Shown piece by piece: positions 2,619 to 47,376 of a stretch of 53,162 nucleotides of DNA; the stretch's first letter is position 1, and the number at the start of each line of letters is the position of its first letter. The notes under the pieces are model-generated. The model worked only from the letters and a program-made list of their open reading frames with translations, searched no databases and was not told where the DNA came from. Source of the stretch: a virus. The stretch is taken from the IMG/VR virus record IMGVR_UViG_3300024323_000009, positions 1 through 53,162 of that record, one strand, 5' to 3'. The translations under genes and the position numbers were made by a program.

Positions 2619-3056
2619 ATGGGCTTCGACAGCAGACAGATACTAGAGCTAGGCAAGCAAGGGTTAAATGCCGAGGAGATAGCTGCCGCTTTGGGGTATG
2701 ATGTAGAGCTAGTCACTACTGTCTTGACGAAGGGGGCGGAAGTTCCGGCCCTAGCTGATACTACTCTCGAAAAGCCTAAAGCTAGAGGGATGATGTTTGA
2801 TGATAGTATGGAGCAACTCGCAGTTGCGACGGTGAAGGATATTCTATTAGATACAGAAGTGAAAGCACAAACACGTCTTAATGCGGCTCGAACTGTCATC
2901 GAGGAACGCAAGGGCCTACTAGAACCCAAAGTCGCTACTAACGTCACTTTCAATATCATGGACTTTAACGAACGGTTGCAGCAGATGCGCCGACGGCGGG
3001 AGGAATTGGAGAGGGTGATAGATGTGCAGGGAGATACTAAATTGGTAGCTGCATGA
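2619..3056 (+). CDS. terS: Putative terminase small subunit
   Basis: The protein has 145 residues. Residues about 5-37 look like a helix-turn-helix (QILELGKQGLNAEEIAAALG), followed by a helical oligomerisation region and a charged coiled coil near 105-135 (RLQQMRRRREELERV). This is the usual TerS layout of N-terminal DNA-binding HTH plus central helices, and the gene lies one small gene upstream of TerL. TerS recognises the packaging site and stimulates the TerL ATPase. The start follows TAGTAGT-ATG, and the stop overlaps the next start as ATGA. The assignment rests on architecture and position. Confidence 0.7.
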   Translation: MGFDSRQILELGKQGLNAEEIAAALGYDVELVTTVLTKGAEVPALADTTLEKPKARGMMFDDSMEQLAVATVKDILLDTEVKAQTRLNAARTVIEERKGLLEPKVATNVTFNIMDFNERLQQMRRRREELERVIDVQGDTKLVAA

Positions 3057-3349
3057 ACACAAGAACATTCATCAAATCACTGCTAGTCGGCGCTATCGCA
3101 CCTTCGGTATTTTTGCCGAAAGCTAGTGACTCGTTTAAGTGGAAACGCACGGCTAGTGGAATCTATGTTGTTAGTGACGTTGACAAATTTCAAAGACTTC
3201 CTTATTACTTAACCAAGGTTGAATTAGAGCATTTTCCCAGCTGGAATAGTTTTGAAATGTTGTATGGAACCAATATCTGGAAACCAGATATGGGTGATAC
3301 TAAAAGAGCAATTACTATTCGCTCCGATTTTTACGCTTCTGGATTCTAG
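3053..3349 (+). CDS. Partial duplicate of the MCP N-terminal arm
   Basis: This is a 98-residue protein. Residues 42-88 align without gaps to residues 18-64 of the major capsid protein (9817-11097). I count 28 identities in 47, including the shared FQ.LP.YL, FP.WN.F, LYG and MG.T.RA motifs. The first 41 residues are different: a hydrophobic stretch at 7-22 resembles a signal or membrane segment, followed by FKWKRTASGIYVV. After the homologous block the protein ends within ten residues. Its start overlaps the TerS stop (ATGA). The DNA is visibly more AT-rich and uses different codons from the MCP gene, so it is not a recent local copy. It could be a remnant of another phage's capsid gene or a working MCP-arm mimic. 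Confidence 0.8.
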   Translation: MNTRTFIKSLLVGAIAPSVFLPKASDSFKWKRTASGIYVVSDVDKFQRLPYYLTKVELEHFPSWNSFEMLYGTNIWKPDMGDTKRAITIRSDFYASGF

Positions 3350-3351
3350 TT

Positions 3352-4959
3352 GTGGACTCCAACACCTCCATCGTCCCCTTCGATTTCAAAGACCCGATAG
3401 ATATGCTACTAGCGATAGATGATATGCTACTTCGAGGCTCCGCGAATGGTGGCATTGACCTCTATAAGTGGCAAATGGAAGTAATGAAAGACTTCGCACA
3501 GGAGAGTAGCGACCGAGAGCCATTCCTAGCAGTAGCTCGAACCTGTAATGGTGCCGGTAAGGACCATATGCTAATTGCGCCCTGTGCTACATGGTTGTGC
3601 TGTCACTATGCCTACGCACAAGTTGTGATAACGTCGAAGTCCGGCCCACAGCTAGACAAGCAGACGAACACCCGCATACAACAGATATGCGAAGCATTTA
3701 ATGCTAAGTGCGGCGAAGAGATATGGAAGATCAACTACCGGCACTATGAGAACCTTCGCACTCGCTCTACTATTGAAATGTTTGTTACAGATGAGGCTGG
3801 ACGCGCCGAAGGATGGCACCCTAAAGTTCCGGGAGGCAAGCAGGCGATATTTACTAGCGAAGCGAAGTCCATCGAAGAAGAGATATTCCAAGCCCTCGCT
3901 AGATGCACCGGAACTACTCACCGACTCGACTGTTCTACACCGGGGTTACCTATGGGGCATTTCTTTAACAGATGCACTAGTGGCAACTGGCGCAAGTACC
4001 ATGTGACGGCGTTCGACTGTCCCCATATCTCACCGGCGGAGATAGCTAGCGTTGCAGAGATGTATGGTGAAGGCTCTCCGACGTATAAGTCCATGATCCT
4101 CGCAGAGTTCTCCACTACCGACGACTTAGTAGTAATTCCGTATTTTCGTGTAGTAGCAGCGATGTCGGGGAACGGGAAGATTCCGCATACTCGGGAAGTG
4201 CATAACACCGGCGGTCTAGACCTATCGGCGGGTGGAGACGAGACTGTGCTAGCGGTTAGGAATGGTAACAAACTACTCTCTATATATGGATGGCGATATG
4301 ATGATACCAGTAGAACAGTCGAACATGTCGAAAAACTGCTCAAGGAGAATGGGTTACAAGACCCTAAAACTACAATCTGGGCTGACGCCGGAGGACTTGG
4401 GAAACCAATCATTGATAATCTACGTTCGAGAGGATGGTACAATATCAAGTATGTTGTTAATCAAGGCTCCCCCAACGACAAGCGAGTCTATCTCAACCGT
4501 GGAACAGAAATGTACTTCACCCTCAACCGATGGCTAGAAAATGGCGAGATCATACTACTCCCAGATGAACGATTACGACGACAACTATCCACTCGTTACT
4601 ATGTTGCGACCGATAACAGGTATCGTCTTGAATCAAAGCTACAAGCGAGGGCCAAAGGGCATCCGTCCCCGGACAGAGCTGATGCCGTTGTATTGGCATT
4701 CTCGAACTACCGAACTCAATTTCGAGATGGCGTACCAGATGATCGGCTCCCGCTACCACCACGAGTTATACAGTCACCTCCTACGGGGGGAGACTTCACT
4801 CTGAAAGGTCATGCACAGGGAGGGGATGATGTGCAACGATACCTCGATCAGAAGTATGGTTCATGGTCAGCGAACGGCAAAGATGATAGCTATTTGAGGG
4901 AGCAGATTGCGGAGTTGAATGCGAAGAGGAAAGCAGTAACCACTAATGAAAATAACTGA
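3352..4959 (+). CDS. terL: Terminase large subunit
   Basis: This 535-residue packaging motor protein has an N-terminal ATPase and a C-terminal nuclease. The P-loop is at about 67-71 (CNGAGKD), where Asp replaces the usual Ser/Thr after Lys. The Walker B region is AIFTSE (165-170), and an STP coupling motif sits near 195. RNase H-like nuclease acids are at D290 (GGLDLS), D345 (IWADAGG) and D441/D444 (SPDRADAV). Length fits the family. The start is GTG just after the preceding TAG; no in-frame ATG precedes M18. It follows TerS and precedes portal. Identification is secure. The unusual P-loop is noted separately. Confidence 0.93.
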   Translation: MDSNTSIVPFDFKDPIDMLLAIDDMLLRGSANGGIDLYKWQMEVMKDFAQESSDREPFLAVARTCNGAGKDHMLIAPCATWLCCHYAYAQVVITSKSGPQLDKQTNTRIQQICEAFNAKCGEEIWKINYRHYENLRTRSTIEMFVTDEAGRAEGWHPKVPGGKQAIFTSEAKSIEEEIFQALARCTGTTHRLDCSTPGLPMGHFFNRCTSGNWRKYHVTAFDCPHISPAEIASVAEMYGEGSPTYKSMILAEFSTTDDLVVIPYFRVVAAMSGNGKIPHTREVHNTGGLDLSAGGDETVLAVRNGNKLLSIYGWRYDDTSRTVEHVEKLLKENGLQDPKTTIWADAGGLGKPIIDNLRSRGWYNIKYVVNQGSPNDKRVYLNRGTEMYFTLNRWLENGEIILLPDERLRRQLSTRYYVATDNRYRLESKLQARAKGHPSPDRADAVVLAFSNYRTQFRDGVPDDRLPLPPRVIQSPPTGGDFTLKGHAQGGDDVQRYLDQKYGSWSANGKDDSYLREQIAELNAKRKAVTTNENN

Positions 4960-9816: not shown

Positions 9817-11097
9817 ATGCCAAATTACTATGAGCAGCCTGCTTCCTTCGCTAATGCGATTGTGGAAGATAAGGACCGCTTCCAGAAACTTCCCTTCTAT
9901 CTCGTCAAAAACGAACTCGAAGTGTTCCCACGCTGGAATATCTTCGATCAACTCTATGGTAACATCTCATGGGAACCCAACATGGGTAACACCATGCGAG
10001 CAGTTACGCCGCAGAAAAGCCCAGTAGCTAACTCATTCGCGTTCCCTAACAATATCGACGTTCTCCCTAATAAGAACGTCTATCAGGTTACGGAGTCGAG
10101 CGAAGACGCGAGAGTAAAGGCGCAGCGGTTCGAGTCACAGCAATTCTCGTTTGTTCCCTACTTCACGTCGTTCTGGCGCGATCACTTACAGTTTGCGAAC
10201 CGTGATATTGCGACGCAGATTCAGAACTATAACAATCAGTTCATACGAACGAATATGCTGGCGAAGAGCAACTATGCTTATATCGCCGGTAAGGGACTCA
10301 TCGGGCAAGCTCCTACTGCGGACCTTGGCACTGTTACTACGGATGCGAATGGTAACACGTTGACAGCAGCCGCAAACTCTAAGACCTCCGCATGGTTCGC
10401 TGCACAAGCCGCACTCATTAAGAACAATCTCTCGCTCCGGGATGTGTATAACGCGATGCTCAGCCATACGGAAGACCTCGCTGCTCCACCGTTCGATGGC
10501 GTGAAGAATATGCCTACTGACAATGAAGGACTGAAAGGGAAGTATGTCATTGTTGGTAGCACAGAAGCGTGGGCAGCATTTCCCTACGACCCTGATACTA
10601 ATCTCCTCAAGAGCTTGGAACAGAATATCCTGTTCAAAGACTTCACTGGGCTGTTGTTCGGCAAGGTGACGTGGAAGTTTGACCGCTATCCTCTGCGGTT
10701 CGATGCTACTGGCGCATTCATTGCTCCCGAAGCGTATGATGACACGGTGAAGAAGTGCATTCCTAATCCGAACTACACTTCGTTGCTCACTGCACCCTAC
10801 GAAATCGCATGGATGCTCGGACAAGACGCCTGCAAGACGATCAAAGTCGGACCTCCACCGAAAGAGTTCGCTGCTACTAGCATGGCTGCGAAGAAGTTCT
10901 ACTCTCTCAAGTGGAATGGTGAGATTCAGCTTACCGATCAAGTGTTGATTACCTACGCGGATGGCACTACTGACCTCAACACCTACGGCACTCAGTTGAA
11001 GTTCATCTCGCAATGCACTCACGGCTACCTTACTGGTGAGCCTCGCTATGCGTTCCCCATTCTGTTCAAGCGCGCTCGTCCGGCGTTGGCAGTCTAA
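9817..11097 (+). CDS. Major capsid protein
   Basis: This 426-residue protein has the size, position (after scaffold) and promoter strength expected of the capsid protein, probably with an HK97-type fold. Residues 1-65 form an extended arm containing FQKLPFYL and LYGNISWEPNMGNTMRA, the part duplicated in the 3053-3349 gene. The C-terminal half contains NYTSLLTAPYEIAWMLGQ (about 316-333) and ends in a strand-rich domain. The ATG follows ACAACAGGACAATTAA. The next gene is cotranscribed, and a terminator follows it. I assign it by context and family features, not a database match. Confidence 0.88.
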   Translation: MPNYYEQPASFANAIVEDKDRFQKLPFYLVKNELEVFPRWNIFDQLYGNISWEPNMGNTMRAVTPQKSPVANSFAFPNNIDVLPNKNVYQVTESSEDARVKAQRFESQQFSFVPYFTSFWRDHLQFANRDIATQIQNYNNQFIRTNMLAKSNYAYIAGKGLIGQAPTADLGTVTTDANGNTLTAAANSKTSAWFAAQAALIKNNLSLRDVYNAMLSHTEDLAAPPFDGVKNMPTDNEGLKGKYVIVGSTEAWAAFPYDPDTNLLKSLEQNILFKDFTGLLFGKVTWKFDRYPLRFDATGAFIAPEAYDDTVKKCIPNPNYTSLLTAPYEIAWMLGQDACKTIKVGPPPKEFAATSMAAKKFYSLKWNGEIQLTDQVLITYADGTTDLNTYGTQLKFISQCTHGYLTGEPRYAFPILFKRARPALAV

Positions 11098-16386: not shown

Positions 16387-17067
16387 ATGGGTACACCTAA
16401 TATCCAACAGCAGGGACCACCTACACTGAATAGGTGGTTGAATATCAATTCGGTGTTGAGGAATCAACGCGAGAGAGGCTCAGTGTTTGTGCCCACTGAC
16501 CAGCTAGAGCTTGCTAGTCATAATCTGTCTGCTGTGTGGAATGGTACGTTTAGCGATAAAGTAATACAGTTTAACTTCGCAGTGACTAACAACATTTCAC
16601 TATTGCGAAGTTCGTTCTTCAATACTGATGGCACTTTCAAACTACCTTTCGGAGATTTGATGCTTTGGAATGTGGCGCGACACAGCACTACTAAACCATA
16701 CCGTCCTACATTTCCGTTAAATCCTGTGGGATACGCATCAGTTGATAGATTTAGATTGAATAACGCTACAGATTATACTATCAATTTAGATGGAGATTAT
16801 ACTGGTCAAACACTAGGTTCTAGTTTCTCGATAGAAGCATGGACTACTCCGAGTTCGGATTTCCAGCTATCTCCGTCAACAGCAGTAGAGATTCTGACTT
16901 CGATACTGTCTCCTACTGTTGACGTTAGGACTAACGGTGCTAACTTTAATATTGCAACACACACCTCTTCCTATCAGCACTTCGAGAATACTAGCTTTAG
17001 CCAAGCAGGAGTAGGATGGGATTTACCTATGGCCTTTCCGCAGTATATCATTGACTTCACACTCTAA
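16387..17067 (+). CDS. Hypothetical virion protein
   Basis: This 226-residue, beta-rich protein without signal peptide contains LSAVWNGTFSDKVIQFNFAV (about 46-65) and ends in FPQYIIDFTL. It lies between fibre and tail genes and is likely part of the tail or fibre base. I do not recognise the family. Confidence 0.65.
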   Translation: MGTPNIQQQGPPTLNRWLNINSVLRNQRERGSVFVPTDQLELASHNLSAVWNGTFSDKVIQFNFAVTNNISLLRSSFFNTDGTFKLPFGDLMLWNVARHSTTKPYRPTFPLNPVGYASVDRFRLNNATDYTINLDGDYTGQTLGSSFSIEAWTTPSSDFQLSPSTAVEILTSILSPTVDVRTNGANFNIATHTSSYQHFENTSFSQAGVGWDLPMAFPQYIIDFTL

Positions 17068-17082
17068 TAACCAAATAAAAAT

Positions 17083-18207
17083 ATGCCAGCCTCAGCACAA
17101 GATTTTATCGGTGGTTTTGACCCATCTGCCGCAGGGAGTATAACAGGACCGCAGTTACTCGCATTGATACAGTCGGGGACACCATATGGTGATAAGGGAC
17201 TTATCGTAGTTACGGCTGATGATGGTTCTGGTAATCCTGATGTGCCTAACGCAGTAGCTACGACAAAATGGCAAGCATATGTGTGGGTGCGGCACTTAGC
17301 GTCATCGGCGGTTGCCTACCTGTGGAACCCCGCTGCCGCTAGTGATGCAACATTCCTCAAGTGGCAGCAAATCAACGTTACTGGTATTGCGGATTTCTCT
17401 ATTACCAACCAGAAGATCGCTCCCGCAGCAGTAACAGACGACAAGATCACTAGTGTCTCATATGCGAAAGTGATAGGAGCGCCGACTGGACTACCACCTA
17501 CTGGTAACGCTGGTGGTGACTTGACCGGCGTATATCCTAATCCGACAGTTGCAGCGAATGCTATCACTTCGACGAAGTTGAGTAGTGATGCGGCAGTTGA
17601 TGCTAACCGAGCAGTCGGCGCTGACCACGTTAAGAATCAAGCGATTTCGCCACTACGCCATTTACTAGTAGGTGCCGCGTATCAGTATCCCCAGACGAAC
17701 TCGGGGGCTACTAACTACGAGTTTGTATATCCTGCGGTGTTGCAGAACTTATACAAAGCAACCACTGCTGCCGATAGCACCAACGTCTCCATTCCAGCAG
17801 ACGACACTATTCCACAAGTGACAGAGGGCAAGGAGTATATTTCTACCTCGATTACGATGAAGTCGGCGTCGTCGCTATTGCGAGTGCAGTTCTCAGGACG
17901 TGTATCGGATGGGACTAACACTACATCGGTTGTAGTCGCAGCGTTTGCCACCTATGCTGGCAGCACTAGCAACGCTATCCAAACAGCCTTCACTCATATT
18001 CCTACTGCTGGAACATCGCAGAACGTGATTATTGATATAGTAATTGCATCGCCGGGACTAGGAACAGTAGTGACAGTTGCGGTTAGGTTCGGCCCTGCTG
18101 GTGGTGGTTCGACTGCTTATATGAATCAACCTTCTACTGGGCACTTATATGGGGTGTCAGCGGGTAGTATTTTAACGGTTCAGGAAATGTTCGGAGTGCT
18201 CTCTTAA
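17083..18207 (+). CDS. Tail fibre protein
   Basis: This 374-residue protein has a globular N-terminus (1-100) that may attach to the tail. A central region contains GGDLTGVYPNPTVAANAITS (about 147-166) and several A/I-T-x-x-KI/KL repeats, a signature of many phage fibre stalks. The C-terminal part (from about 205) is a Thr/Ser/Val-rich beta domain, probably the receptor-binding tip. Confidence 0.7.
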   Translation: MPASAQDFIGGFDPSAAGSITGPQLLALIQSGTPYGDKGLIVVTADDGSGNPDVPNAVATTKWQAYVWVRHLASSAVAYLWNPAAASDATFLKWQQINVTGIADFSITNQKIAPAAVTDDKITSVSYAKVIGAPTGLPPTGNAGGDLTGVYPNPTVAANAITSTKLSSDAAVDANRAVGADHVKNQAISPLRHLLVGAAYQYPQTNSGATNYEFVYPAVLQNLYKATTAADSTNVSIPADDTIPQVTEGKEYISTSITMKSASSLLRVQFSGRVSDGTNTTSVVVAAFATYAGSTSNAIQTAFTHIPTAGTSQNVIIDIVIASPGLGTVVTVAVRFGPAGGGSTAYMNQPSTGHLYGVSAGSILTVQEMFGVLS

Positions 18208-21321: not shown

Positions 21322-22464
21322 ATGGGAGACTACGGCGGTTCAGCACCCAGCTACGGCGAGTATATGAATGCCCTCAGTAATTACTATACTGGGGACATTG
21401 GAAGCTATTCGCAGTCGGTCAACAATGCGTCGCAGCAGAACGATTTGAGTAACTTGGGTATCTCGAACCTACTCACGCAAGGATACTCGAATATAGGGTT
21501 GCAGAACCTTACTAACTATGCAATGCCCTACAATCAGATAGGACAGCAGATTGAGAATAGTAATGCACAAGCAGGTGCGAATACTAACCTCGCGCAGATT
21601 AGCGGTGCAGGTGGGCAAGTGTCTAGAGTGGCGAACCAGTTAGAGCAGCAGGTTAACCCAGAGTACTATCAAATACGCGGCGCAGCGGGTAATCAGGCGA
21701 CCAATCTCGTCAATAGCATCAATCTGAATGGATTGAGTGGTGGTGAACAAGCAGCAGTGGAGCGTTCATTAGCACAGAGCAATTATGCTAGTGGGAACTT
21801 GGGACTAGATAATGCTACTAATGCCGTATCGAACGCAATGAACTTTGGTGACTACTTGAATACGAAGCGGACGGCACTTAGTAATGCGTTGAACACTGCC
21901 TCTACTACGATGAATGCGGTGAATAATACGTCGTGGAACCCTGTATCAACAGCGTTGTCGCAGCCTGATAGTAGCACTCAGAGCAACTGGGGAACGTCGC
22001 AGTTCGCCGGAACTACTAAGGCATCCGGCACCAATGAGAATACTACCTCATCGGATTTAATGTCTAGCATATCGTCGTTACTAGGTTCTCAGATGGGTTA
22101 TCAGTATTCCGCGAACGCTAGTAACTCTTTCGGCGGCATCTTGAGCAGTCAAACCTCGTCAATAGGTGACGTTTGCTGCTTCATCTTTCTCGAAGCTTAT
22201 CATGGTACGTTGCCGTGGTGGGTTAGGGAGTGCCGAGACTATTATTATCGTGAGTGTCCGCAGCTAGCTTCCGGGTATCGCCGCATGGCGAAGTGGCTAG
22301 TGCCGATTATGCGGCACTCACGATTAGTTCGTGGACTGGTGTGGCATGTTATGGTGAAGCCGATTACAGAGTATGGGAAGTGGATGGTTGGACTATCCGC
22401 TAAAGCGAGTGGTCGTGCTAGTCGTAACTTCTGGTTCCGAGTGTGGAGCTACTTAGGGCGATGA
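21322..22464 (+). CDS. Internal virion protein with Cys-rich C-terminal domain
   Basis: This 380-residue protein's residues 1-275 are Asn/Gln/Ser-rich and helical, typical of internal or ejection proteins. From about 281 the composition changes abruptly to a basic, aromatic domain starting DVCCFIFLEAYHGTLPWWVR. It resembles the CFI-box C-terminal domain seen at the ends of diverse secreted or phage proteins (recalled, not searched). The stop overlaps the glycosyltransferase start (ATGA), suggesting coupled expression. Confidence 0.7.
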   Translation: MGDYGGSAPSYGEYMNALSNYYTGDIGSYSQSVNNASQQNDLSNLGISNLLTQGYSNIGLQNLTNYAMPYNQIGQQIENSNAQAGANTNLAQISGAGGQVSRVANQLEQQVNPEYYQIRGAAGNQATNLVNSINLNGLSGGEQAAVERSLAQSNYASGNLGLDNATNAVSNAMNFGDYLNTKRTALSNALNTASTTMNAVNNTSWNPVSTALSQPDSSTQSNWGTSQFAGTTKASGTNENTTSSDLMSSISSLLGSQMGYQYSANASNSFGGILSSQTSSIGDVCCFIFLEAYHGTLPWWVRECRDYYYRECPQLASGYRRMAKWLVPIMRHSRLVRGLVWHVMVKPITEYGKWMVGLSAKASGRASRNFWFRVWSYLGR

Positions 22465-23249
22465 CTGTCGTAGCTCTAGTATCAGTTCCAGAAGGTGCCG
22501 ACTTCGATGTTTGCACGTTAGCATTCTCGTCGCTACGAGTTGGCTTTCCCTCTGCGACAATTAAAGTGTATGATAATGGTAATGGCGAGGAAGTTACTAG
22601 TAGGTTGAAGCCTCTCGCAGACAGTATCGGCGCTGAACTCCATAGGTGTATCGAACCAAAACACCACGCTGATTGGATTAGCCTCATGGTTAGGATGCAC
22701 GATGGACCACTACGAGTAGTAGATACTGATACTATCTGGTGGGAGAGCTGTGAAGGATTCGATTTCGATTCTCCGCTAGCAGGCCGGTTCGTTCCTACTA
22801 TGTGGAATGAGTTCTCTCAGTGTCCGTCGTTTGCTCGCTTACATACGTCATTCATGTGGATACGTGATTGTGCAGAGTTATGCAACCGCATCAGGGAAGC
22901 GTATCCTCCAGCGCATTCGGCGTGCGGAGAGTATTGTCCATGCAACCCATTCCTACCAGCAGTTGGCTTCGTAGGTGGTAAGCCAGTGTTTTGGGATTCT
23001 ACTGCGATGCTCTACAATATGATAGGTGGTGCTCATTTCGAGCCGAAGCATTTGGAGTGCTATACGCATGTGAATTCGGCGTCGTTCTATAAAGTAATGC
23101 TCGAACGAGTAGAGAACAAGACAGCTTTCGCACGACAACATGAGCTAGCTAAGTATGAACCCGAGAAGCTTCGAGGATTCTGGCGTGCCGAGGACCGTTA
23201 CTATGCCGAGATGAATCGGCGATATTTGGAAGGAGTTAATAAGCAATAA
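22461..23249 (+). CDS. Putative glycosyltransferase (GT-A type)
   Basis: This 262-residue protein starts at the ATG overlapping the previous TGA. An N-terminal Rossmann-like start (MTVVALVSVPEG) and VYDNGNG fit GT-A enzymes, as does the DxD motif in RVVDTDTIWW (D88, D90), which usually binds metal and nucleotide sugar. Several Cys residues lie at about 140-165. Its place among ejection protein genes is odd. It may modify virion proteins, host surface or DNA. Confidence 0.6.
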   Translation: MTVVALVSVPEGADFDVCTLAFSSLRVGFPSATIKVYDNGNGEEVTSRLKPLADSIGAELHRCIEPKHHADWISLMVRMHDGPLRVVDTDTIWWESCEGFDFDSPLAGRFVPTMWNEFSQCPSFARLHTSFMWIRDCAELCNRIREAYPPAHSACGEYCPCNPFLPAVGFVGGKPVFWDSTAMLYNMIGGAHFEPKHLECYTHVNSASFYKVMLERVENKTAFARQHELAKYEPEKLRGFWRAEDRYYAEMNRRYLEGVNKQ

Positions 23250-24899: not shown

Positions 24900-27800
24900 A
24901 TGCCTATCAAACGTCAGTTGACAGATGAGGAATTGGCAGAGTTAGATCGTCAAGGGTATGATGTGTCACAGGTGCCGAAGGATGGAGTGACGGTATTATC
25001 GCCAGAGGAGCAGCAACAACAGGCACTCAAGGCACAAGGAGAGCAGCAGGGACAACTCGGCGCTGTCGGCGCTACTCTCAAGGGACATGCTGGTTCTCTC
25101 ATAGGTGGTGGTGCAGGGGCATTAACAGCTGGTGCAGTAGTGCCAGCTATTGCCGCATCATGGGCAGGTGGGCCGGTTACTGGCATACCGGGAACATTGC
25201 TAGGACTAGGTGCGATGGCGGCGGGTGGATTAGCTGGGTCTTATGCTGGCCAAAAAGCACAAGAGGCGATATTGCCGCAAGCGACGAATCAACAGTTACA
25301 GCAGGCAGCAGTGGCAGCACAGGCAGCGTATCCAAAGACAGCACTAGCTACTGATGTGGGTGCTGGAGCACTACTAAGTGGTGGCAGACCATCATTGACA
25401 GTTCCGAGTCTAGCAGGTAGTGGACTTAAGAAGATATTGACTCAAGGCATAGCTTCACAGTTACTCCCACAAGAAGCTAGTGCGATACGTAACGTGGTGA
25501 CTATGAACGCGGCGAATCTAGGTGTGAATGCCGGATTGCAGGCTGCGACGACTGGGAAGGTGGACCCCACTGAGCTTGCTGCGTCAGGACTAGCAGGAGT
25601 TGCGTTCTCACAACCTAACTTCCTTGGTCGAAAACTGTTGAAGTGGGAACCGCTATCACGAAGTGCCGCACCACAAGCTGAGACTCAAGCGACTCCTTAT
25701 ACTATTGAGGATGGTCAGATACAAACTGTGGAGCAACGTCAAGCGAGGCAGAAGCAGCAGGGCAACGAGGATTGGCAGCGCCAGCAACTAGAGACGCAGC
25801 AGGCGAATGAGTATTCGGCGCAACAGGCTGCACAACTAGAAGCGCAACAACAGCAACAGAGAGATGCCGCTGAGTATCGCCAAGCGAACTGGAAGTCCCT
25901 CTCTCCGGCTCAACCTGCTAATAAGGACGGGACTCCTAACTATATGGTAGGCGATCAGGGAGTGAAGAGGGCGTGGTTGAAGCGCAACTCGGAGCCGGTT
26001 CCTGATGATGCGGACGAGATTACCCGAGCATCGGTACAGGCGCGTAACAACCTCTTGAAGCAAACTCCTGTAAGTCAGATGCGCGACGAGATGTATGTGC
26101 AGGACTTGGCGACGAAAGACCCAGAGGGCTATCAGCAATATCAGCAACAGCAACAGGCTCAGATGCAACGCATCCAACAGATGCAACAAGATGTTGCTAG
26201 CCAGAATGCTAGAATAGCGAATCAGACAGAAGCGCAGAAGCAAGCGTTGGCACAACAGCAAGCGCAGGCTAAAGCGCAACAGGTGCAGGCTCAACAGCAA
26301 CTCGCGGCACGTCAGAAGCGTCACGATGATTTCGTAGCAGCATTCCAACGCGATCAACAGGCACAACGTCAGATAGAGGCGGAACAGCTTAGACAGCAGA
26401 TACTAGGGAGGGGTTTGGAGCAACGTAGCGCGGCGACTGGCACCGCCGAGATGCAAGCGAAAGCTGCGAGAGAGGCAGCATTTGCACAAGCGGAGCGAGA
26501 GGGTGAGGCTGCTAGACAGCGTGCGCTAGAGATAGAAGAGCAGCAGCGCCGAGATGAAGGGGATACACGCTATCAAGGTGTTACTCCCGGCGACAAAGAA
26601 GTATCTAGAGCTACTCCCGAACTCCTCGGAGAAGCCGCGAAACGAGCTACGACTATCGGCCAACTACAGCCAGAAGATCGCTTAACTATCCCAGAGACTG
26701 GCGGCGAGGCGAGAGGAGCGGCGAGGATAGGGGAGCGGTTGATCTTGCTATCAAGGATGGCGACGAAGGATACCGGCTATCACGAACTCCTACACCAGAC
26801 ATTGAGTGATATGGACAAGAGTGGCGATAGGTATATGATGGAACTCGCTGGGAGGATGCGCCGAGTCCATGCGGGAGAGGAGCAACTAGCGCAACAGGGT
26901 GGAGAGCAATACCAGCAGCAAGTCGAAGGTCGTAGGAATATGATGGCGAAGGCAGGCTCTACACTCAAAGATGTCTATGCTGCGTTATCGGCGCGATTGG
27001 GGACGGAGAATCCGGGCCTTTTGAGGAGGAACCTAATCGCTATCGCTAGAGGGGCGAGTGGGCCGGAGACACCATTGATAGCGAAAGCTAGTGCAGCAAT
27101 AGGCGGAAAAGGAATCATACACTATAATACTAATGATGACTTCAAACGCTACAATGAGTTAGTATCCAAAATCCGAACCGCTCAATTATCTGAAAGACCT
27201 TCTATCTGGAAAGAACTAGAAGAGATTAAGAACCGCAATGGTGGAATGCCACCACAAGGTGTTCATATTGATGGCTCTAACGGTACTAAGTATCAAGGTG
27301 TTGAACCTGAACAACAGCGTAGAGTGGCTGGAGCTAATGTTAATCGTGCTCTAGGACTACTCGGCGCTTCTATGTATGATAAGAACTATTCTCAAACTGC
27401 GGTTAAAGAGATGGTTCAGAATGCTTTTGATGCGGTTAAAGGAGTCAATGAACCAACTATTCGACTACACTTGGAAGAGAGTGGTGGAGAGACTATAGGA
27501 GTTTCTGATAATGGTCGTGGAATGACTCCAGAGATAGTGTTGACTAAGCTTCTTCCAGCATTTGAGAGCGGCAAAGAAAGCACAGAAAGTGCTGGCGGCT
27601 ATGGATTAGCGAAAGTTGCACTTTTTAGTGGTGCTGATGACTTTAGAGTAGTGACAGTTGCAGAACATCAAGGGCAGAAGTTGCAGACAGAGGTGAATGG
27701 TGATGGCAAAGCATGGCTAGACTTCGTGAATCATGGTGCTGATTTGCCACTTGACCTGAACCAACCGGGCAGACATACACTCGACAGCAAGGGTGATTTA

Positions 27801-30800
27801 GAAGTGTGGGTTAAGCCTGTGGATGCTGAGACTACTACTGGCACTAAGATGGAAATTACTCCGTCGAAGAATTACGACAAGTATGACGCTAGAAAAGTAT
27901 TCAAAAACATCGCCAAGAACGAGCCGGGAACCATCAAGTTCTTAGATGAATATGGTACAGAGATTAAGCCAGATGCGGCAGCTTTAGCACCGGCACAGCA
28001 TACAGTTATAACTAAGGGTGCAGAAGTAAAAGTTCACTATGATCCCAGTGAATCTCCAGAACGTCAATGGGGTTTTCCAGTGATGAATAATGGATTGGTT
28101 CAATTCGACTACCCTTTCTACGAAGATGTTAAACTACCTTCGATTAAAATTAACGTCAACCCTACAGTGGACGTAATGAATCCAGAGTATCCGTTCACCA
28201 ACAATCGTGATGCTTTGAAAGGTGAGTCTAGGCAAGCAGTTGAGAATATCTTGAAGAATATGTCTCAACAATATAAGCAGAAAGTGCTAGATGTATTTCA
28301 GTCTCGCATGAATGATACTACTAAAATCGAAGGCTCTCGACAGAGATTCCTCGATGTTAGTGGTAGAATGAAGCCGGAAGATGTTACTGAGATAGCCACG
28401 GATAAGAGGATACAGGACTTGAATAAAGCATTGAGTAGAGTTCATACTGCTGCATTCAAATATCTCAACCGGCGTTTTGGTGATTTCTGGTCTAATGCTA
28501 GATACAAAGGTTTTGCCAATGGTGGAGGTTTCAAAGGTGTGCGATTTGGAGTGCCAGAGAAGGGTAAGAAAGGGGAAATTTATTATGACTTACAGCACGT
28601 ATTCAATGATGGGATACAAGCATTTCGAGATGGTAAGTATGGACCAGCAGAGATGAATAAAGCGGTTGGTGAAAGTTTAGCAGGTGTAGTATTACATGAG
28701 ATTTCGCACCAGGTTTCACACTCCGAAGGTGAAGGTCATGCTATAGCAATGACTGACCTCGCTGGTCCAATGGCTGAATACATTCGTAAATCAATCCGAG
28801 CAGTAGAAAAAACATTCACACACGATAGTGATATATTAAACTTCTATGAATGGTACAGAGATAAAATTAAAAATACGGAACTCGCAGCAGATGAGGCGCG
28901 TGATTTCATTCGCCAAGGTCAACGCGGCGAACCAACAGGACAAATCTTCTCAGCAACTAATAGAGAAGCTAGCACCAGAACTAGTGAAGCAGGCGGAGAA
29001 ACCAAGTTTCAGCCAGTAGATATTGGTGATGTGTTAGAGCCACAAGAAGGACGATTAGGGAAGCAGGGCTATTACCACCTCCGCGATGAACGCCTACAAG
29101 CCTCGTCGGTTCACATTACTGACGACAAGATTCATGTCATTAACTTGCAAGTGCCACAAGAGAAACAAGGTAAAGGTATCGGCTCCGAAGTGCTCGGCAA
29201 ACTCAAAGGACTCTCCGACTCTATCGGTAAGCCTATCGAATTGATAGCACACCCCGATAGTGAAAAGCAACAGGAACAGTTGAACCGATTCTATGAGCGT
29301 AACGGATTCACAAAGCTAGAAGGCGACGATCGGAAGTTTAGCTATTTTCCACCAGCATCTAGTATGAAGTATCAACCCGTAGCTGGCCATCCTGAGGACG
29401 AATCACCAGTAGCGAAGGAGGCGTCGTTGAAGCTTACGCAATCGGCGATTGACCGCATTCGTAGTATTCCGGCGAAGATAGCACCGGAGCTAGGTGATGC
29501 GTTCCAGCAGACTCTAGCGAAGAAGCAGAACCTCCTTGGGCAGTGGTGGAACAAAGCGGCATACGCTATTAATAAGCTCTCGACTAACGAGCAGGCGACG
29601 TTACAAGATGTACTCTATAACGAGCGTGATAGTAGGCAGAAGATGTTTGTTCCACAGAAGCTGCGCGAGGCTTATGGCGCGATTCGGCAGGCATATCTCG
29701 ATAGCGCCGAACACCAACGTGCTATCAATGAACCCATCCAAGAGAGTGATGGCACTATGCGTCCTATCGAAGTGGACCCCTTCTACCATGCGACTACGAT
29801 GGAGCCGAAGGTAGCAGATGTGTTTCGGCAGGGGACGGATAAGGCTGAGGAGCAGCGGTTGACGGACATCTTTGTGCAACACCAACTCCGGCATATTGAC
29901 CCGAAGATCACTGACCCTGAGCAACGACTCGCGATTGCACATAGTAACCTCAAAGATATTATCGCGTCACTGCGCGGCTCCGCCAAGTTCGACACCGGCG
30001 ATCATAGCAACCAGACGTTCTATAATGCAGCGCGGAGAGCCGAGGGAATACTCCTTCCTAAAGAGTTCATGCGCCAAGATTTGAAGCGCAACCTACAAGT
30101 GTATTTCATGCGACGTGCAGCGGATAATGCTTATTATGAGCATATGGAGAGTCAGCCGAAGATAGCATCAGCGTTAGGTTATACTAAAGATGCGTGGGGT
30201 AACAAACTGCCGAAAGCTGACGAGTTACTATCGGGCAACGATCAAGTCCGTGCAGTAATGAACATGCTCAAGGGTGAGGGGATTACGAAGACGAGTATGC
30301 AGGAGCACGCGGTAGAGTCACTCGCGAGTGCAGTGATGCTAGGACCAACCACCGAAGGCCATAAGATAGTGGGTAGTCAAGCGATGGCGATGACCTACGC
30401 AGATAACCCAGTGGAAGCCGCGAAGATGTATCTGCACGCGATACGCAATCTTGGGAGTGGATGGGTTAATACTAAGAATGAGCCAACTGGTAGTTACGCA
30501 CACACGCTAGAGACTGGCTATCACGTCCTCGATAGTAAGTCGGCGCATGACATGCTCAATACTCACTTGACTGCTGCTGAACGACTCCGTGGGTTGACTA
30601 CTGGGATACGCGAGATTTATACTATTGGTGGGTTGACTGAACGGTTCAACAAGAGCATGTTGCAGGGGATGGCCGAATATCTCATACCCTCGAAACTAGC
30701 CGCAGCTAGGAATGGTGATGCCGGAGCTTTAGCACTAGTCCGGCATATAGACCCCTCCTTCACTCCCGACAAAGCTTATACTGACAAGCAACTCGTAGCA

Positions 30801-31847
30801 ATAGCATCCGAGTTCGCCAATCTGATGCACGGCACTAAGGATGCTAGGACATTGCCTGCGTGGATGCTACACGATAACGAAGTCTCATCATTCTTCAAGC
30901 TCGCTTCGTGGAACATCGCCCAGACTAATAACTTCATGCGTAACGTATGGACACCAGCCAAGCAGGGCAACTTCCAACCGCTGCTAATGTCCACCCTTGG
31001 CGCTGCCCTCGGAGGTTATGCCTTGACTCAGTTGCGGGAGGCAATCAATGCGAAGCGTTCCGGCGTCCCGTCCTTCGGGGAAATGGCCGCCTCGGAGCGG
31101 GGATTGTTTCAACCGGCGCTCGCATATCAGGCGATGGCGATGGCCAGCTATGCCGGATTTGGGGGGATACTCTCGACGGTCGCAAGGTGGCCATTCGACA
31201 TTGCGTTCCGAAACGCTCCACAAGGCGCGACGTTTCCACTCGACGAAGAGGTTAGCGGACTAGTGAAGGTGGGCAACAACGTAGTGGATGCGTTGTTGAA
31301 TGACCCTACTGGCAACTGGATGAACATAGGCGCTCATGGTATTGCGGACATATTGAAAAATAACATTCAACTAGCGCGAGTGGGATATAACCACATGGCC
31401 GATTTAGGAATGCTATCGCCGGAGCGTAACGAGTTGAAGGCGACTAGTGATAAGATGGCCGAGTTACGCCGGTTCAAACAGGTGAGTGGTTATACTGTTG
31501 ATTTACAGGGTGGTGCTGGTGATGAGAACCCCTATATGAACTTAGAGCAGCGTAGCTTTAAGAGGGAGCAAGATATGGGCAAAGCAATGCAGGAGTTGCC
31601 GGCGCTAGTGAACACGTTAGTTACGAAGTATGGTGATAAGCCTGACGTGATGCTATCGAAACTAAGGTCATTGAAGAGCAATAGCACTTACGAAACTATG
31701 CCCTCGTTTGAAGATACTCCATTGGTGTTCACCAGATACTTGTCCTTCTTGCAGAAACGTGAGGGTAACAATGCCGCAAATGCTAGGCTGATGGACTATA
31801 TGCAGCACAAGATTGTGAATGCGGCTAAAGCTTCGGCAGTTCCTTAA
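24900..31847 (+). CDS. Giant polyvalent ejection protein
   Basis: This is a 2315-residue protein. A Gly/Ala-rich membrane-like stretch at about 60-125 is followed by Gln-rich coiled coils to 557. HELLH (628-632) is an HExxH zinc-protease motif. A GHKL/Hsp90-type ATP fold follows: E837/N841, DNGRGM (870-875), GGYGLAK (899-905). A second zinc-protease motif HEISH is at 1266-1270. A GNAT domain contains QGKGIG (1423-1428) and FYERNGF (1464-1470). The long helical C-terminus (1495-2315) has a hydrophobic patch near 2030-2110. YQGV or (Y/F)QPV occurs at 558, 798, 1370 and 1491, at the domain borders. Such multi-domain proteins are packaged in the virion and injected to act before phage genes are expressed. 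The 798-1369 part is AT-richer, suggesting domain insertion. Confidence 0.85.
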   Translation: MPIKRQLTDEELAELDRQGYDVSQVPKDGVTVLSPEEQQQQALKAQGEQQGQLGAVGATLKGHAGSLIGGGAGALTAGAVVPAIAASWAGGPVTGIPGTLLGLGAMAAGGLAGSYAGQKAQEAILPQATNQQLQQAAVAAQAAYPKTALATDVGAGALLSGGRPSLTVPSLAGSGLKKILTQGIASQLLPQEASAIRNVVTMNAANLGVNAGLQAATTGKVDPTELAASGLAGVAFSQPNFLGRKLLKWEPLSRSAAPQAETQATPYTIEDGQIQTVEQRQARQKQQGNEDWQRQQLETQQANEYSAQQAAQLEAQQQQQRDAAEYRQANWKSLSPAQPANKDGTPNYMVGDQGVKRAWLKRNSEPVPDDADEITRASVQARNNLLKQTPVSQMRDEMYVQDLATKDPEGYQQYQQQQQAQMQRIQQMQQDVASQNARIANQTEAQKQALAQQQAQAKAQQVQAQQQLAARQKRHDDFVAAFQRDQQAQRQIEAEQLRQQILGRGLEQRSAATGTAEMQAKAAREAAFAQAEREGEAARQRALEIEEQQRRDEGDTRYQGVTPGDKEVSRATPELLGEAAKRATTIGQLQPEDRLTIPETGGEARGAARIGERLILLSRMATKDTGYHELLHQTLSDMDKSGDRYMMELAGRMRRVHAGEEQLAQQGGEQYQQQVEGRRNMMAKAGSTLKDVYAALSARLGTENPGLLRRNLIAIARGASGPETPLIAKASAAIGGKGIIHYNTNDDFKRYNELVSKIRTAQLSERPSIWKELEEIKNRNGGMPPQGVHIDGSNGTKYQGVEPEQQRRVAGANVNRALGLLGASMYDKNYSQTAVKEMVQNAFDAVKGVNEPTIRLHLEESGGETIGVSDNGRGMTPEIVLTKLLPAFESGKESTESAGGYGLAKVALFSGADDFRVVTVAEHQGQKLQTEVNGDGKAWLDFVNHGADLPLDLNQPGRHTLDSKGDLEVWVKPVDAETTTGTKMEITPSKNYDKYDARKVFKNIAKNEPGTIKFLDEYGTEIKPDAAALAPAQHTVITKGAEVKVHYDPSESPERQWGFPVMNNGLVQFDYPFYEDVKLPSIKINVNPTVDVMNPEYPFTNNRDALKGESRQAVENILKNMSQQYKQKVLDVFQSRMNDTTKIEGSRQRFLDVSGRMKPEDVTEIATDKRIQDLNKALSRVHTAAFKYLNRRFGDFWSNARYKGFANGGGFKGVRFGVPEKGKKGEIYYDLQHVFNDGIQAFRDGKYGPAEMNKAVGESLAGVVLHEISHQVSHSEGEGHAIAMTDLAGPMAEYIRKSIRAVEKTFTHDSDILNFYEWYRDKIKNTELAADEARDFIRQGQRGEPTGQIFSATNREASTRTSEAGGETKFQPVDIGDVLEPQEGRLGKQGYYHLRDERLQASSVHITDDKIHVINLQVPQEKQGKGIGSEVLGKLKGLSDSIGKPIELIAHPDSEKQQEQLNRFYERNGFTKLEGDDRKFSYFPPASSMKYQPVAGHPEDESPVAKEASLKLTQSAIDRIRSIPAKIAPELGDAFQQTLAKKQNLLGQWWNKAAYAINKLSTNEQATLQDVLYNERDSRQKMFVPQKLREAYGAIRQAYLDSAEHQRAINEPIQESDGTMRPIEVDPFYHATTMEPKVADVFRQGTDKAEEQRLTDIFVQHQLRHIDPKITDPEQRLAIAHSNLKDIIASLRGSAKFDTGDHSNQTFYNAARRAEGILLPKEFMRQDLKRNLQVYFMRRAADNAYYEHMESQPKIASALGYTKDAWGNKLPKADELLSGNDQVRAVMNMLKGEGITKTSMQEHAVESLASAVMLGPTTEGHKIVGSQAMAMTYADNPVEAAKMYLHAIRNLGSGWVNTKNEPTGSYAHTLETGYHVLDSKSAHDMLNTHLTAAERLRGLTTGIREIYTIGGLTERFNKSMLQGMAEYLIPSKLAAARNGDAGALALVRHIDPSFTPDKAYTDKQLVAIASEFANLMHGTKDARTLPAWMLHDNEVSSFFKLASWNIAQTNNFMRNVWTPAKQGNFQPLLMSTLGAALGGYALTQLREAINAKRSGVPSFGEMAASERGLFQPALAYQAMAMASYAGFGGILSTVARWPFDIAFRNAPQGATFPLDEEVSGLVKVGNNVVDALLNDPTGNWMNIGAHGIADILKNNIQLARVGYNHMADLGMLSPERNELKATSDKMAELRRFKQVSGYTVDLQGGAGDENPYMNLEQRSFKREQDMGKAMQELPALVNTLVTKYGDKPDVMLSKLRSLKSNSTYETMPSFEDTPLVFTRYLSFLQKREGNNAANARLMDYMQHKIVNAAKASAVP

Positions 31848-46269: not shown

Positions 46270-46507
46270 TTTCTTTTCTGTAGTTTAGAATTTGGTTAAG
46301 CTCATCAATGAACATGCGACCTTTATCACACTTGGCACACAAGAAGTAATGCCGAACTTTGTTGGTAGGATTTATTCCTACAGATTCTATGGCGCTTCTT
46401 TCAACTTCGTATCCATTTAGTTCGCGTTTAGCATCTACCAAATCTTGTTCCACTTCACTAGTCGGTATGTGATTAACTTTGTTTATCTGTTCTACTGTTA
46501 GTGTCAT
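46232..46507 (-). CDS. Hypothetical protein
   Basis: This 91-residue protein is helical (EVEQDLVDAKRELNGYEVER) with one CAKC pair and a basic tail. Its start overlaps the activator ATPase stop (ATGA), so the two are coupled. It may modulate the activator, but that rests on position only. Confidence 0.55.
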   Translation of the reverse strand: MTLTVEQINKVNHIPTSEVEQDLVDAKRELNGYEVERSAIESVGINPTNKVRHYFLCAKCDKGRMFIDELNQILNYRKENENTKQHQSTKL

Positions 46508-47376
46508 TGTATATCCTCCACCGTTATCGCCTCTACCCCTAACACTTCGATGCGGAGCGCAAGGTTAAGGAGTTGCCGCACATTACCCGGCAACACTTTT
46601 TCTGGCGGGACAGTCTTAACTAGCTCTAGTATTCTAGTATAAGCAACACTATTAACTAGTAGTTTGCAGTCATCCATTTTCTCGCGGAGAGGCTTCACTT
46701 TCAATTCAAATACTGATAGCCTCTGATACAAGTCTAGTCTAAAAGTAGGAGGGTCTAACTTAGACATGGCTTTCAAGTCTTTATGTGTTGCAGCCACAAT
46801 GCGACACAATAATTGTTCATCCGTATTACCACCAACCTTGCGAAAGGTTCTATTGTTAATTGTGCGTAATAGCTTTACTTGCAAATCGGCAGGCATATCA
46901 CCTACCTCGTCTAGAAAAAGTGTGCCTCCTTCGGCTTGTTTGATAAGGCCATTACGTTCTCTCTCTGCTCCTGTGAAAGCACCTCTAGTATGGCCGAATA
47001 GTTCACTCTCGAATAATAGTGGACTGACAGCACACACATTGACGCCGACTAGTTGACCTCTACGTTCTCCATGTAGTATGTTAGCGAGCAGTTCTTTACC
47101 TACTCCACTGTCGCCTAAGATAAGAACAGGCTCTTCTCTAGGGGCTAGTTTAATAGTTTGCTCCTTCACTTTGATAGTGTCAGCGTCGTTAGTCTTGAAC
47201 GCTCTCGCTGCCTTCCACGCTGCTATTCGCCAAGGGTTGATGATGCCGGAGGCTACTGCGCCGGACATGAGAGCTACACTAGGTGACTTCTCCTTCTCTA
47301 GTAGTGTGGCCCATATCTCGGCTTGTTGCTCAATAGTGAGTTCGCTAGTGGAGGGTGCTATTTTTTGTTCACTCAT
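46504..47376 (-). CDS. Sigma54-activator AAA+ ATPase without DNA-binding domain
   Basis: This 290-residue protein is a bacterial enhancer-binding protein-type ATPase. It has Walker A GDSGVGKE (88-95), ESELFGHTRGAFTGA with the sigma54-contacting GAFTGA loop at 132-137, Walker B GGTLFLDEVGDMP (150-162; D156, E157), FRLDLYQRL with arginine-finger candidates R213/R219, and sensor II LPGNVRQL (R267). It uses ATP to remodel the closed RNA polymerase-sigma54 complex. A short N-terminal region (1-75) carries no recognised regulatory domain. The protein ends just after the AAA+ lid with no C-terminal helix-turn-helix, so it may act from solution. It starts one base after the upstream stop (TAA-T-ATG). 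Confidence 0.9.
   Translation of the reverse strand: MSEQKIAPSTSELTIEQQAEIWATLLEKEKSPSVALMSGAVASGIINPWRIAAWKAARAFKTNDADTIKVKEQTIKLAPREEPVLILGDSGVGKELLANILHGERRGQLVGVNVCAVSPLLFESELFGHTRGAFTGAERERNGLIKQAEGGTLFLDEVGDMPADLQVKLLRTINNRTFRKVGGNTDEQLLCRIVAATHKDLKAMSKLDPPTFRLDLYQRLSVFELKVKPLREKMDDCKLLVNSVAYTRILELVKTVPPEKVLPGNVRQLLNLALRIEVLGVEAITVEDIQ

Follow-up and report, generated by a model that had tools for sequence, protein, structure and literature searches.

A capsid-arm fragment behind a leader-like N-terminus at the terS/terL junction of a phage: a possible class of small capsid mimics

Why would a phage carry, between its two terminase genes, a separate small gene that repeats part of the N-terminal arm of its own major capsid protein (MCP)? 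This question is raised by an open reading frame in a viral sequence of 53,162 nucleotides (IMG/VR record IMGVR_UViG_3300024323_000009), the whole of which is hereafter called the window. Regulation of assembly, mimicry of the capsid arm, a decoy against capsid-sensing defence and a fossil of another capsid gene had all been put forward in the original prediction for this locus.

The ORF at 3053-3349 and its similarity to the capsid arm

The ORF, here designated P0001, occupies positions 3053-3349 of the plus strand and encodes 98 amino acids from an ATG start to a TAG stop. As first described, it lies between terS (2619-3056, plus) and terL (3352-4959, plus). Its start overlaps the terS stop in an ATGA at 3053-3056, an overlap found identically in a related phage (L067), and the GTG start of terL at 3352 follows its stop by 2 nt. 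Such an overlap suggests translational coupling from terS to P0001. TerL matched 139 phage records at E<=0.01, many of them annotated as terminase large subunit, and the terS label follows from position, an HTH-like start and the gene order of relatives, with PF13936 reaching only E 0.026. Among annotated phages, the TerL matches at the top of the list came from Akkermansia phages at 31-33% identity; therefore, the host is likely verrucomicrobial, and the phage group carrying this kind of gene is probably so as well. Directly upstream of terS, a strongly hydrophobic 45-aa ORF (2477-2614, plus) possibly encodes a small membrane protein.

The gene whose arm is repeated lies at 9817-11097 (plus) and gave no family match in family-profile searches. 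Its AlphaFold2 model, made from 20 input sequences with a mean pLDDT of 61, has an HK97 fold, gave 46 PDB matches at E<=1e-3 to phage and satellite capsids, and resembles N4-type and cyanophage shells. The label MCP is used for an HK97-fold capsid protein as judged by predicted structure, not by family match.

P0001 falls into three parts. Residues 1-32 (3053-3148; MNTRTFIK..FLP..KWKR) form a leader with a short hydrophobic core, a basic c-region and an n-region resembling that of twin-arginine (Tat) signals minus one arginine. Residues 37-88 (3161-3316) resemble the MCP found in this phage group and correspond to MCP residues 13-64 (9853-10008), as recognized by BLASTP and by an MCP profile (44.6 bits, E 4e-12; 0 of 2000 shuffles). 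The C-terminal tail, residues 89-98 (3317-3346), has lost the MCP-invariant P and SP positions. The 28 identities in 47 residues reported earlier between P0001 42-88 and MCP 18-64 are exact by count, and BLASTP gives a gapless alignment of P0001 39-98 with MCP 15-74 (31/60 identical, E 1e-20). The Smith-Waterman score of P0001 against the MCP was 174, whereas the highest-scoring of 1000 shuffles reached 58; the profile, built from 63 MCPs and run against 10,145 ORFs, returned P0001 as the top non-MCP match; and within the window the two were the sole similar pair at E<=1e-4 among ORFs of at least 60 aa.

The whole HK97 fold is absent from P0001, which holds 52 of about 426 residues and is missing the spine helix (MCP 116-150). 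At 18 positions invariant in 21 MCPs, a set that omits L035, which the search pattern failed to pick up, and L008 and L028, which were judged too distant, the arm of P0001 retains 11 and loses 7. Since three of the seven losses fall in its last ten residues, the similarity proper stops near residue 88. P0001 itself had no match in Pfam, NCBIfam or PADLOC and a best PHROG match of only E 0.13; its AlphaFold2 model, with a pLDDT of 52, was uninformative.

The related set consisted of 88 phage records (27 contigs and 61 new ones) from MCP-profile and TerL-profile scans. A whole-record search with the MCP profile recovered an MCP in 80 of the 88 (42/50 and 38/38); one record has its MCP split across the record ends. 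This search revealed no second strong MCP copy in the 88 records, and the weak MCP-like segments described below for L067, L002 and L084 were not among its matches. An arm profile run over the fetched loci never detected more than one arm in a locus below E 0.1, that of the MCP, except in the window, which has two, and P0001 matched each of 27 whole records once, inside the long MCP frame. Sought in other phages, the arm copy is therefore a singleton within the set of 88; what seems to recur instead is different MCP-like segments behind similar leaders. The whole ORF had no close relative in viral contigs, gave only chance matches in the phages collection (E 5 or worse) and produced one weak, probably chance, match in a single scan of genome contigs. 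A scan for the arm pattern W[EKQ]PDMG returned three proteins, all unrelated.

Origin of the arm copy and signs of selection

Across 60 codons, P0001 and the MCP gene share 94 of 180 nucleotides and 21 of 60 third positions, which indicates an old or fast-diverged copy rather than a recent duplication. In a tree built on 50 columns of the arm with 13 MCPs, where the row of P0001 is long and no branch attains the tool's starred support level, P0001 falls beside the MCP of the window itself (support 92/95). That MCP is also the closest of the 13, with 29/50 identical residues as against 25/50 for the runner-up. The best reading of these comparisons is that the arm was derived from the window's own MCP lineage.

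A codon model rejected neutrality on the P0001 branch with both topologies, at 2dlnL 9.9 (p about 0.002) for the favoured tree and 2dlnL 3.9 (p about 0.05) for the alternative, with the branch at its upper bound (saturated) and base-composition differences lying outside the model. Part of the constraint seen by this model may have acted while the sequence still belonged to an MCP gene and is inseparable from that on P0001 itself, so the result is read as some sign of purifying selection on P0001. Together with the intact frame and the grouping with the window's own MCP, this sign speaks against the earlier suggestion that the ORF is a fossil of another capsid gene, and a full-length second capsid gene is disfavoured.

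MCP paralogues and truncations are known, as are small phage leader proteins. The Caulobacter phage Colossus has a diverged MCP paralogue, gene 36, beside its MCP gene 81 (PMC3556154). As in the present case, a second copy has diverged and moved to another locus in a single member of a phage group. However, gene 36 is a duplicated gene for which the available part of that paper mentions no leader or small fragment, whereas P0001 has only 98 aa, consisting of a leader and one arm.

Similar leaders and the segments behind them

The N-terminus of P0001, originally described as different and hydrophobic, is indeed so, with a best 15-residue Kyte-Doolittle mean of 1.85 at residues 7-21. It has the form [NS]-x-R-x-F-[LI], about 13 hydrophobic residues, [IF]LP and then W-K, which is common to a few small ORFs in other phages. 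A search with the leader pattern listed about 50 ORFs, mostly of antisense or overlapping-frame appearance, from which sense ORFs in operon gaps were chosen by eye. Three were picked on N-terminus and position, all upstream of terL: L067 (9445-9705), where the order terS-ATGA-ORF-terL is as in the window, L069 (9504-9749) and L084 (9538-9822). A fourth, from the closest relative, L002 (6287-6739, between terL and portal), was picked on its N-terminus. All four choices preceded any comparison with the MCP. The fifth, L128, a 116-aa ORF in the early, non-structural region of the L011 record, came from a leader-profile search. The ORFs of the window, L067, L069 and L084 lie upstream of terL, and those of L002 and L128 lie elsewhere.

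Over the 88 records (50 + 38), the leader profile matched in those of L067, L069, L084 and L011; a weak match in the L012 record (E 0.002, covering model residues 9-26 only) was not counted. Leader genes are therefore rare, being present in 5 of 88 records with that of L002 included, and three Akkermansia phages whose ORFs were included in a leader-profile search gave no match. In leave-one-out searches of 16,121 ORFs, the profile recovered L067 at E 2e-12, L084 at E 4e-11 and L128 at E 5e-7. P0001 was the top non-training ORF at E 0.1, the weakest of the four, and the leaders of L069 and L002 were not clearly recovered. Compared pairwise with the leaders of L067 and L084, P0001 residues 1-34 scored higher than all 1000 shuffles. 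L067 and L084 are identical at 25 of 44 aligned residues and at 20 of 44 third positions, which argues for constraint at the protein level.

The resemblance to Tat signal peptides (PF10518, TIGR01409) lies in an RRxFL-like n-region, a short core and a basic c-region in L084, L128 and, in part, L067. In contrast, the window has T-R in place of the twin arginine (NTRTFIK) and gives no match to the Pfam and NCBIfam Tat models, and L128 scores 14.1 and 12.9 bits against the two, under both cut-offs. As no curated Tat model reaches its cut-off and none matches the window, export by the Tat system is not claimed; by its sequence, the leader of P0001 may be described as Tat/Sec-like and possibly envelope-targeting.

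Behind the leaders, the MCP profile scored 44.6 bits in the window, 14.7 in L067, 6.2 in L002 and 4.1 in L084. With MCPs set aside, these ORFs ranked first, second (E 0.005), fourth (E 1.2) and ninth (E 7.4), respectively, among the 10,145. In 2000 shuffles of the sequence behind an unchanged leader, the real score was reached by none for the window, L067 and L002 and by one for L084, so that four of the six leader ORFs have an MCP segment at no more than 1/2000 shuffles. The same test gave no significant match for L128 (156) or L069 (1064); a possible collinear match of L128 to MCP 294-349, with a score of 53, is covered by that result. Against portal, TerL, scaffold and two further profiles, none of the six fell below 40/2000. 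Among 400 control ORFs, taken from 930 others of 80-150 aa on the plus strand of the same loci, none reached 4.1 bits and none beat all of its own 300 shuffles. With the window excluded, a Fisher test by hand on 3/5 leader ORFs versus 0/400 gives about 1e-6; L067 and L084 are related and not independent cases, and merging them as one (2/4 versus 0/400) gives about 7e-5.

The segments differ from phage to phage, corresponding to MCP 13-64 in the window, 300-341 in L067, 371-406 in L002 and 407-424 in L084. The best segment of L067 reads IPNPAYVNAEYEVSFMV against IPNPAYVNAQFEVAFLV of an MCP, and that of L084 reads KRNIVPILFKR against KRNIVPIIFKR. In the AlphaFold2 model of the MCP, the segments of L067, L002 and L084 fall on strands in its C-terminal third. 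The phage's own MCP ranks first among 63 in the window, and 13th, 34th and 9th in L067, L002 and L084, respectively, whose best matches are the MCPs of other phages.

A further lead concerned small leader ORFs ending in a DVLYG..RPELA.R motif, which may occur in environmental phages. The motif proved to be the C-terminus of P22-type coat proteins, and ten such records contained no leader ORF with it. One of the P22-type records, L115 (MW202674.1, 16569-18084), has a coat gene annotated as two pieces, 16569-16871 and 17089-18084, separated by a small ORF; the coat profile recognizes the first piece at E 8e-33.

What the gene may do

The explanation that we put first, though only tentatively, is that P0001 belongs to a small functional class in which an envelope-targeting leader is joined to an MCP fragment, the product being a capsid mimic and the fragment in the window being the N-arm. 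The leader would be recognisable across the class and the MCP segment behind it would vary by phage. Made alongside the packaging proteins, the product would be directed by its leader to or through the inner membrane, and at the envelope it would expose an MCP surface to a usual partner of the MCP, be it the MCP itself, the scaffold or a host MCP-binding protein. In favour of this class are the intact frame of P0001 with its overlapping and near-abutting neighbours, the similar leader at the equivalent junction of L067, and the MCP-like segments that score above controls in three of the five other leader ORFs. Among the interpretations offered at the outset, mimicry fits best and the fossil is not favoured. 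Several points speak against the class: the window's leader is the weakest of four by profile and has no second arginine, the MCP matches of L002 and L084 are weak over all ORFs, the leader of L002 is missed by the profile, the genes of L002 and L128 lie away from terS/terL, and most phages of the group have no leader ORF. Relaxed constraint would likewise give the loss of seven of 18 invariant MCP positions. In addition, no action of capsids is known at the periplasmic face, which makes the leader hard to square with a role in assembly. The sequences hint at a recurring, unexplained kind of capsid mimic across related phages.

An unlikely but serious alternative is that P0001 is a recombinational relic, in which illegitimate recombination added a piece of the MCP to a leader-like ORF or spacer at a terS/terL hotspot, with an inert product. 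The terS-terL gap is indeed variable, with different ORFs in L006/L018, L011 and L012 and none in L007, L013 and L014. The restriction of the arm copy to one record, its lost invariant positions and its GC content of 36%, within the lowest 0.8% of 621 windows of the same size, would also be expected of such a relic. However, the 98-codon frame is intact, whereas in neutral simulations at the fitted branch length it stays open in only 6% of runs; the codon model rejects neutrality, at a strength that depends on topology; and leader ORFs with MCP-like segments recur in other phages.

It is rather improbable that the protein is a cytoplasmic or membrane-bound assembly modulator, with the arm binding MCP or scaffold to tune the nucleation or timing of procapsids and the leader acting as an anchor or hydrophobic handle. 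N-arms of HK97-fold shells generally make inter-subunit contacts, the copied piece is such an arm, and its position implies expression with the packaging genes; the mapping of the other three segments to strands of the MCP would also suit this role. However, because 80 of the 88 records have an MCP and nearly all of them do so without a leader ORF, such an ORF is dispensable for assembly, and the segments differ between phages. The structure model of P0001 does not help. P4 Sid and other satellite capsid modifiers are likewise small capsid-acting proteins, but P0001 has no family match, and Sid is not known to be MCP-derived or to have a leader. Another phage product that interferes with assembly is encoded by a prophage and stops invading phages from forming virions (PMC10884400); it is not known here as a capsid fragment.

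A counter-defence decoy is less probable again. In this reading, the MCP piece would serve as an epitope that keeps a capsid-sensing immune protein of the host occupied, and the leader would carry this piece to the membrane or away from the cytoplasm. Defences that sense capsid proteins do exist (CapRel-SJ46; T4 Gol/Lit, PifA), and short or defined MCP regions, such as the Gol segment of T4 Gp23 and the CapRel triggers, are recognized by host immune proteins (PMC9712102). A variable epitope behind a conserved leader is what an arms race would be expected to produce. In those systems, as far as the available part of the source describes them, the sensed region lies inside the MCP itself, whereas P0001 is a separate gene with a leader (PMC9712102). 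Against the decoy, no such defence is known here, and the leader ORFs have no counter-defence annotation, nor did PADLOC return a defence-protein match for any of the six. A long shot of the same kind is that exported or membrane-held capsid epitopes, made of a Tat-like leader and interchangeable MCP pieces, bind immune sensors and clear them from the cytoplasm, e.g., by co-export with a folded leader protein, the MCP piece tracking the epitope read by the local sensor.

An assembly chimera or chance similarity, for which the single record and an arm GC content unlike that of the genome could be cited, is hardly credible, as the genes on either side belong to one phage lineage and P0001 overlaps or abuts both of them, the insert fitting exactly between the ATGA upstream and the 2-nt gap downstream; in addition, the match has an E of 1e-20, L067 is arranged alike at its start, and no MCP sequence follows beyond the stop of P0001.

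In the open-licence PMC full text, we came across no account of a recurrent type of gene that joins a secretory-type leader to MCP pieces. If the class is true, capsid sequence would be tied to an envelope-directed function, which would offer a practical way into capsid sensing and counter-sensing and could be tested with short synthetic genes. If, on the other hand, the relic is true, the terS/terL junction would repeatedly collect capsid fragments in frame behind leaders, which itself needs explaining.

Some further genes were observed in the course of this analysis. At the same junction, L006 (5078-5431), L018, L019, L021 and L052 carry a staphylococcal-nuclease-like gene (PF00565, E 8e-16 in L006) and a 72-77-aa ORF between terS and terL, so the junction is an insertion site in that sub-group as well. 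In the window, the structural region includes a 268-aa ORF (22443-23249, plus) that looks glycosyltransferase-like by eye and has no Pfam match. A 290-aa sigma-54 activator-like protein (46504-47376, minus) has a sigma-54 activator AAA+ domain (PF00158, E 6e-52) and matches PADLOC RtcR-type CARF_AAA_HTH models over residues 66-290 (E 6.5e-64). Finally, the ORF at 24900-31847 (plus) encodes a large multi-domain protein of 2315 aa, perhaps ejected with the DNA, in which a GHKL ATPase domain of the HSP90/histidine-kinase type (PF13589, E 1e-8) is accompanied by a weak match to GNAT.
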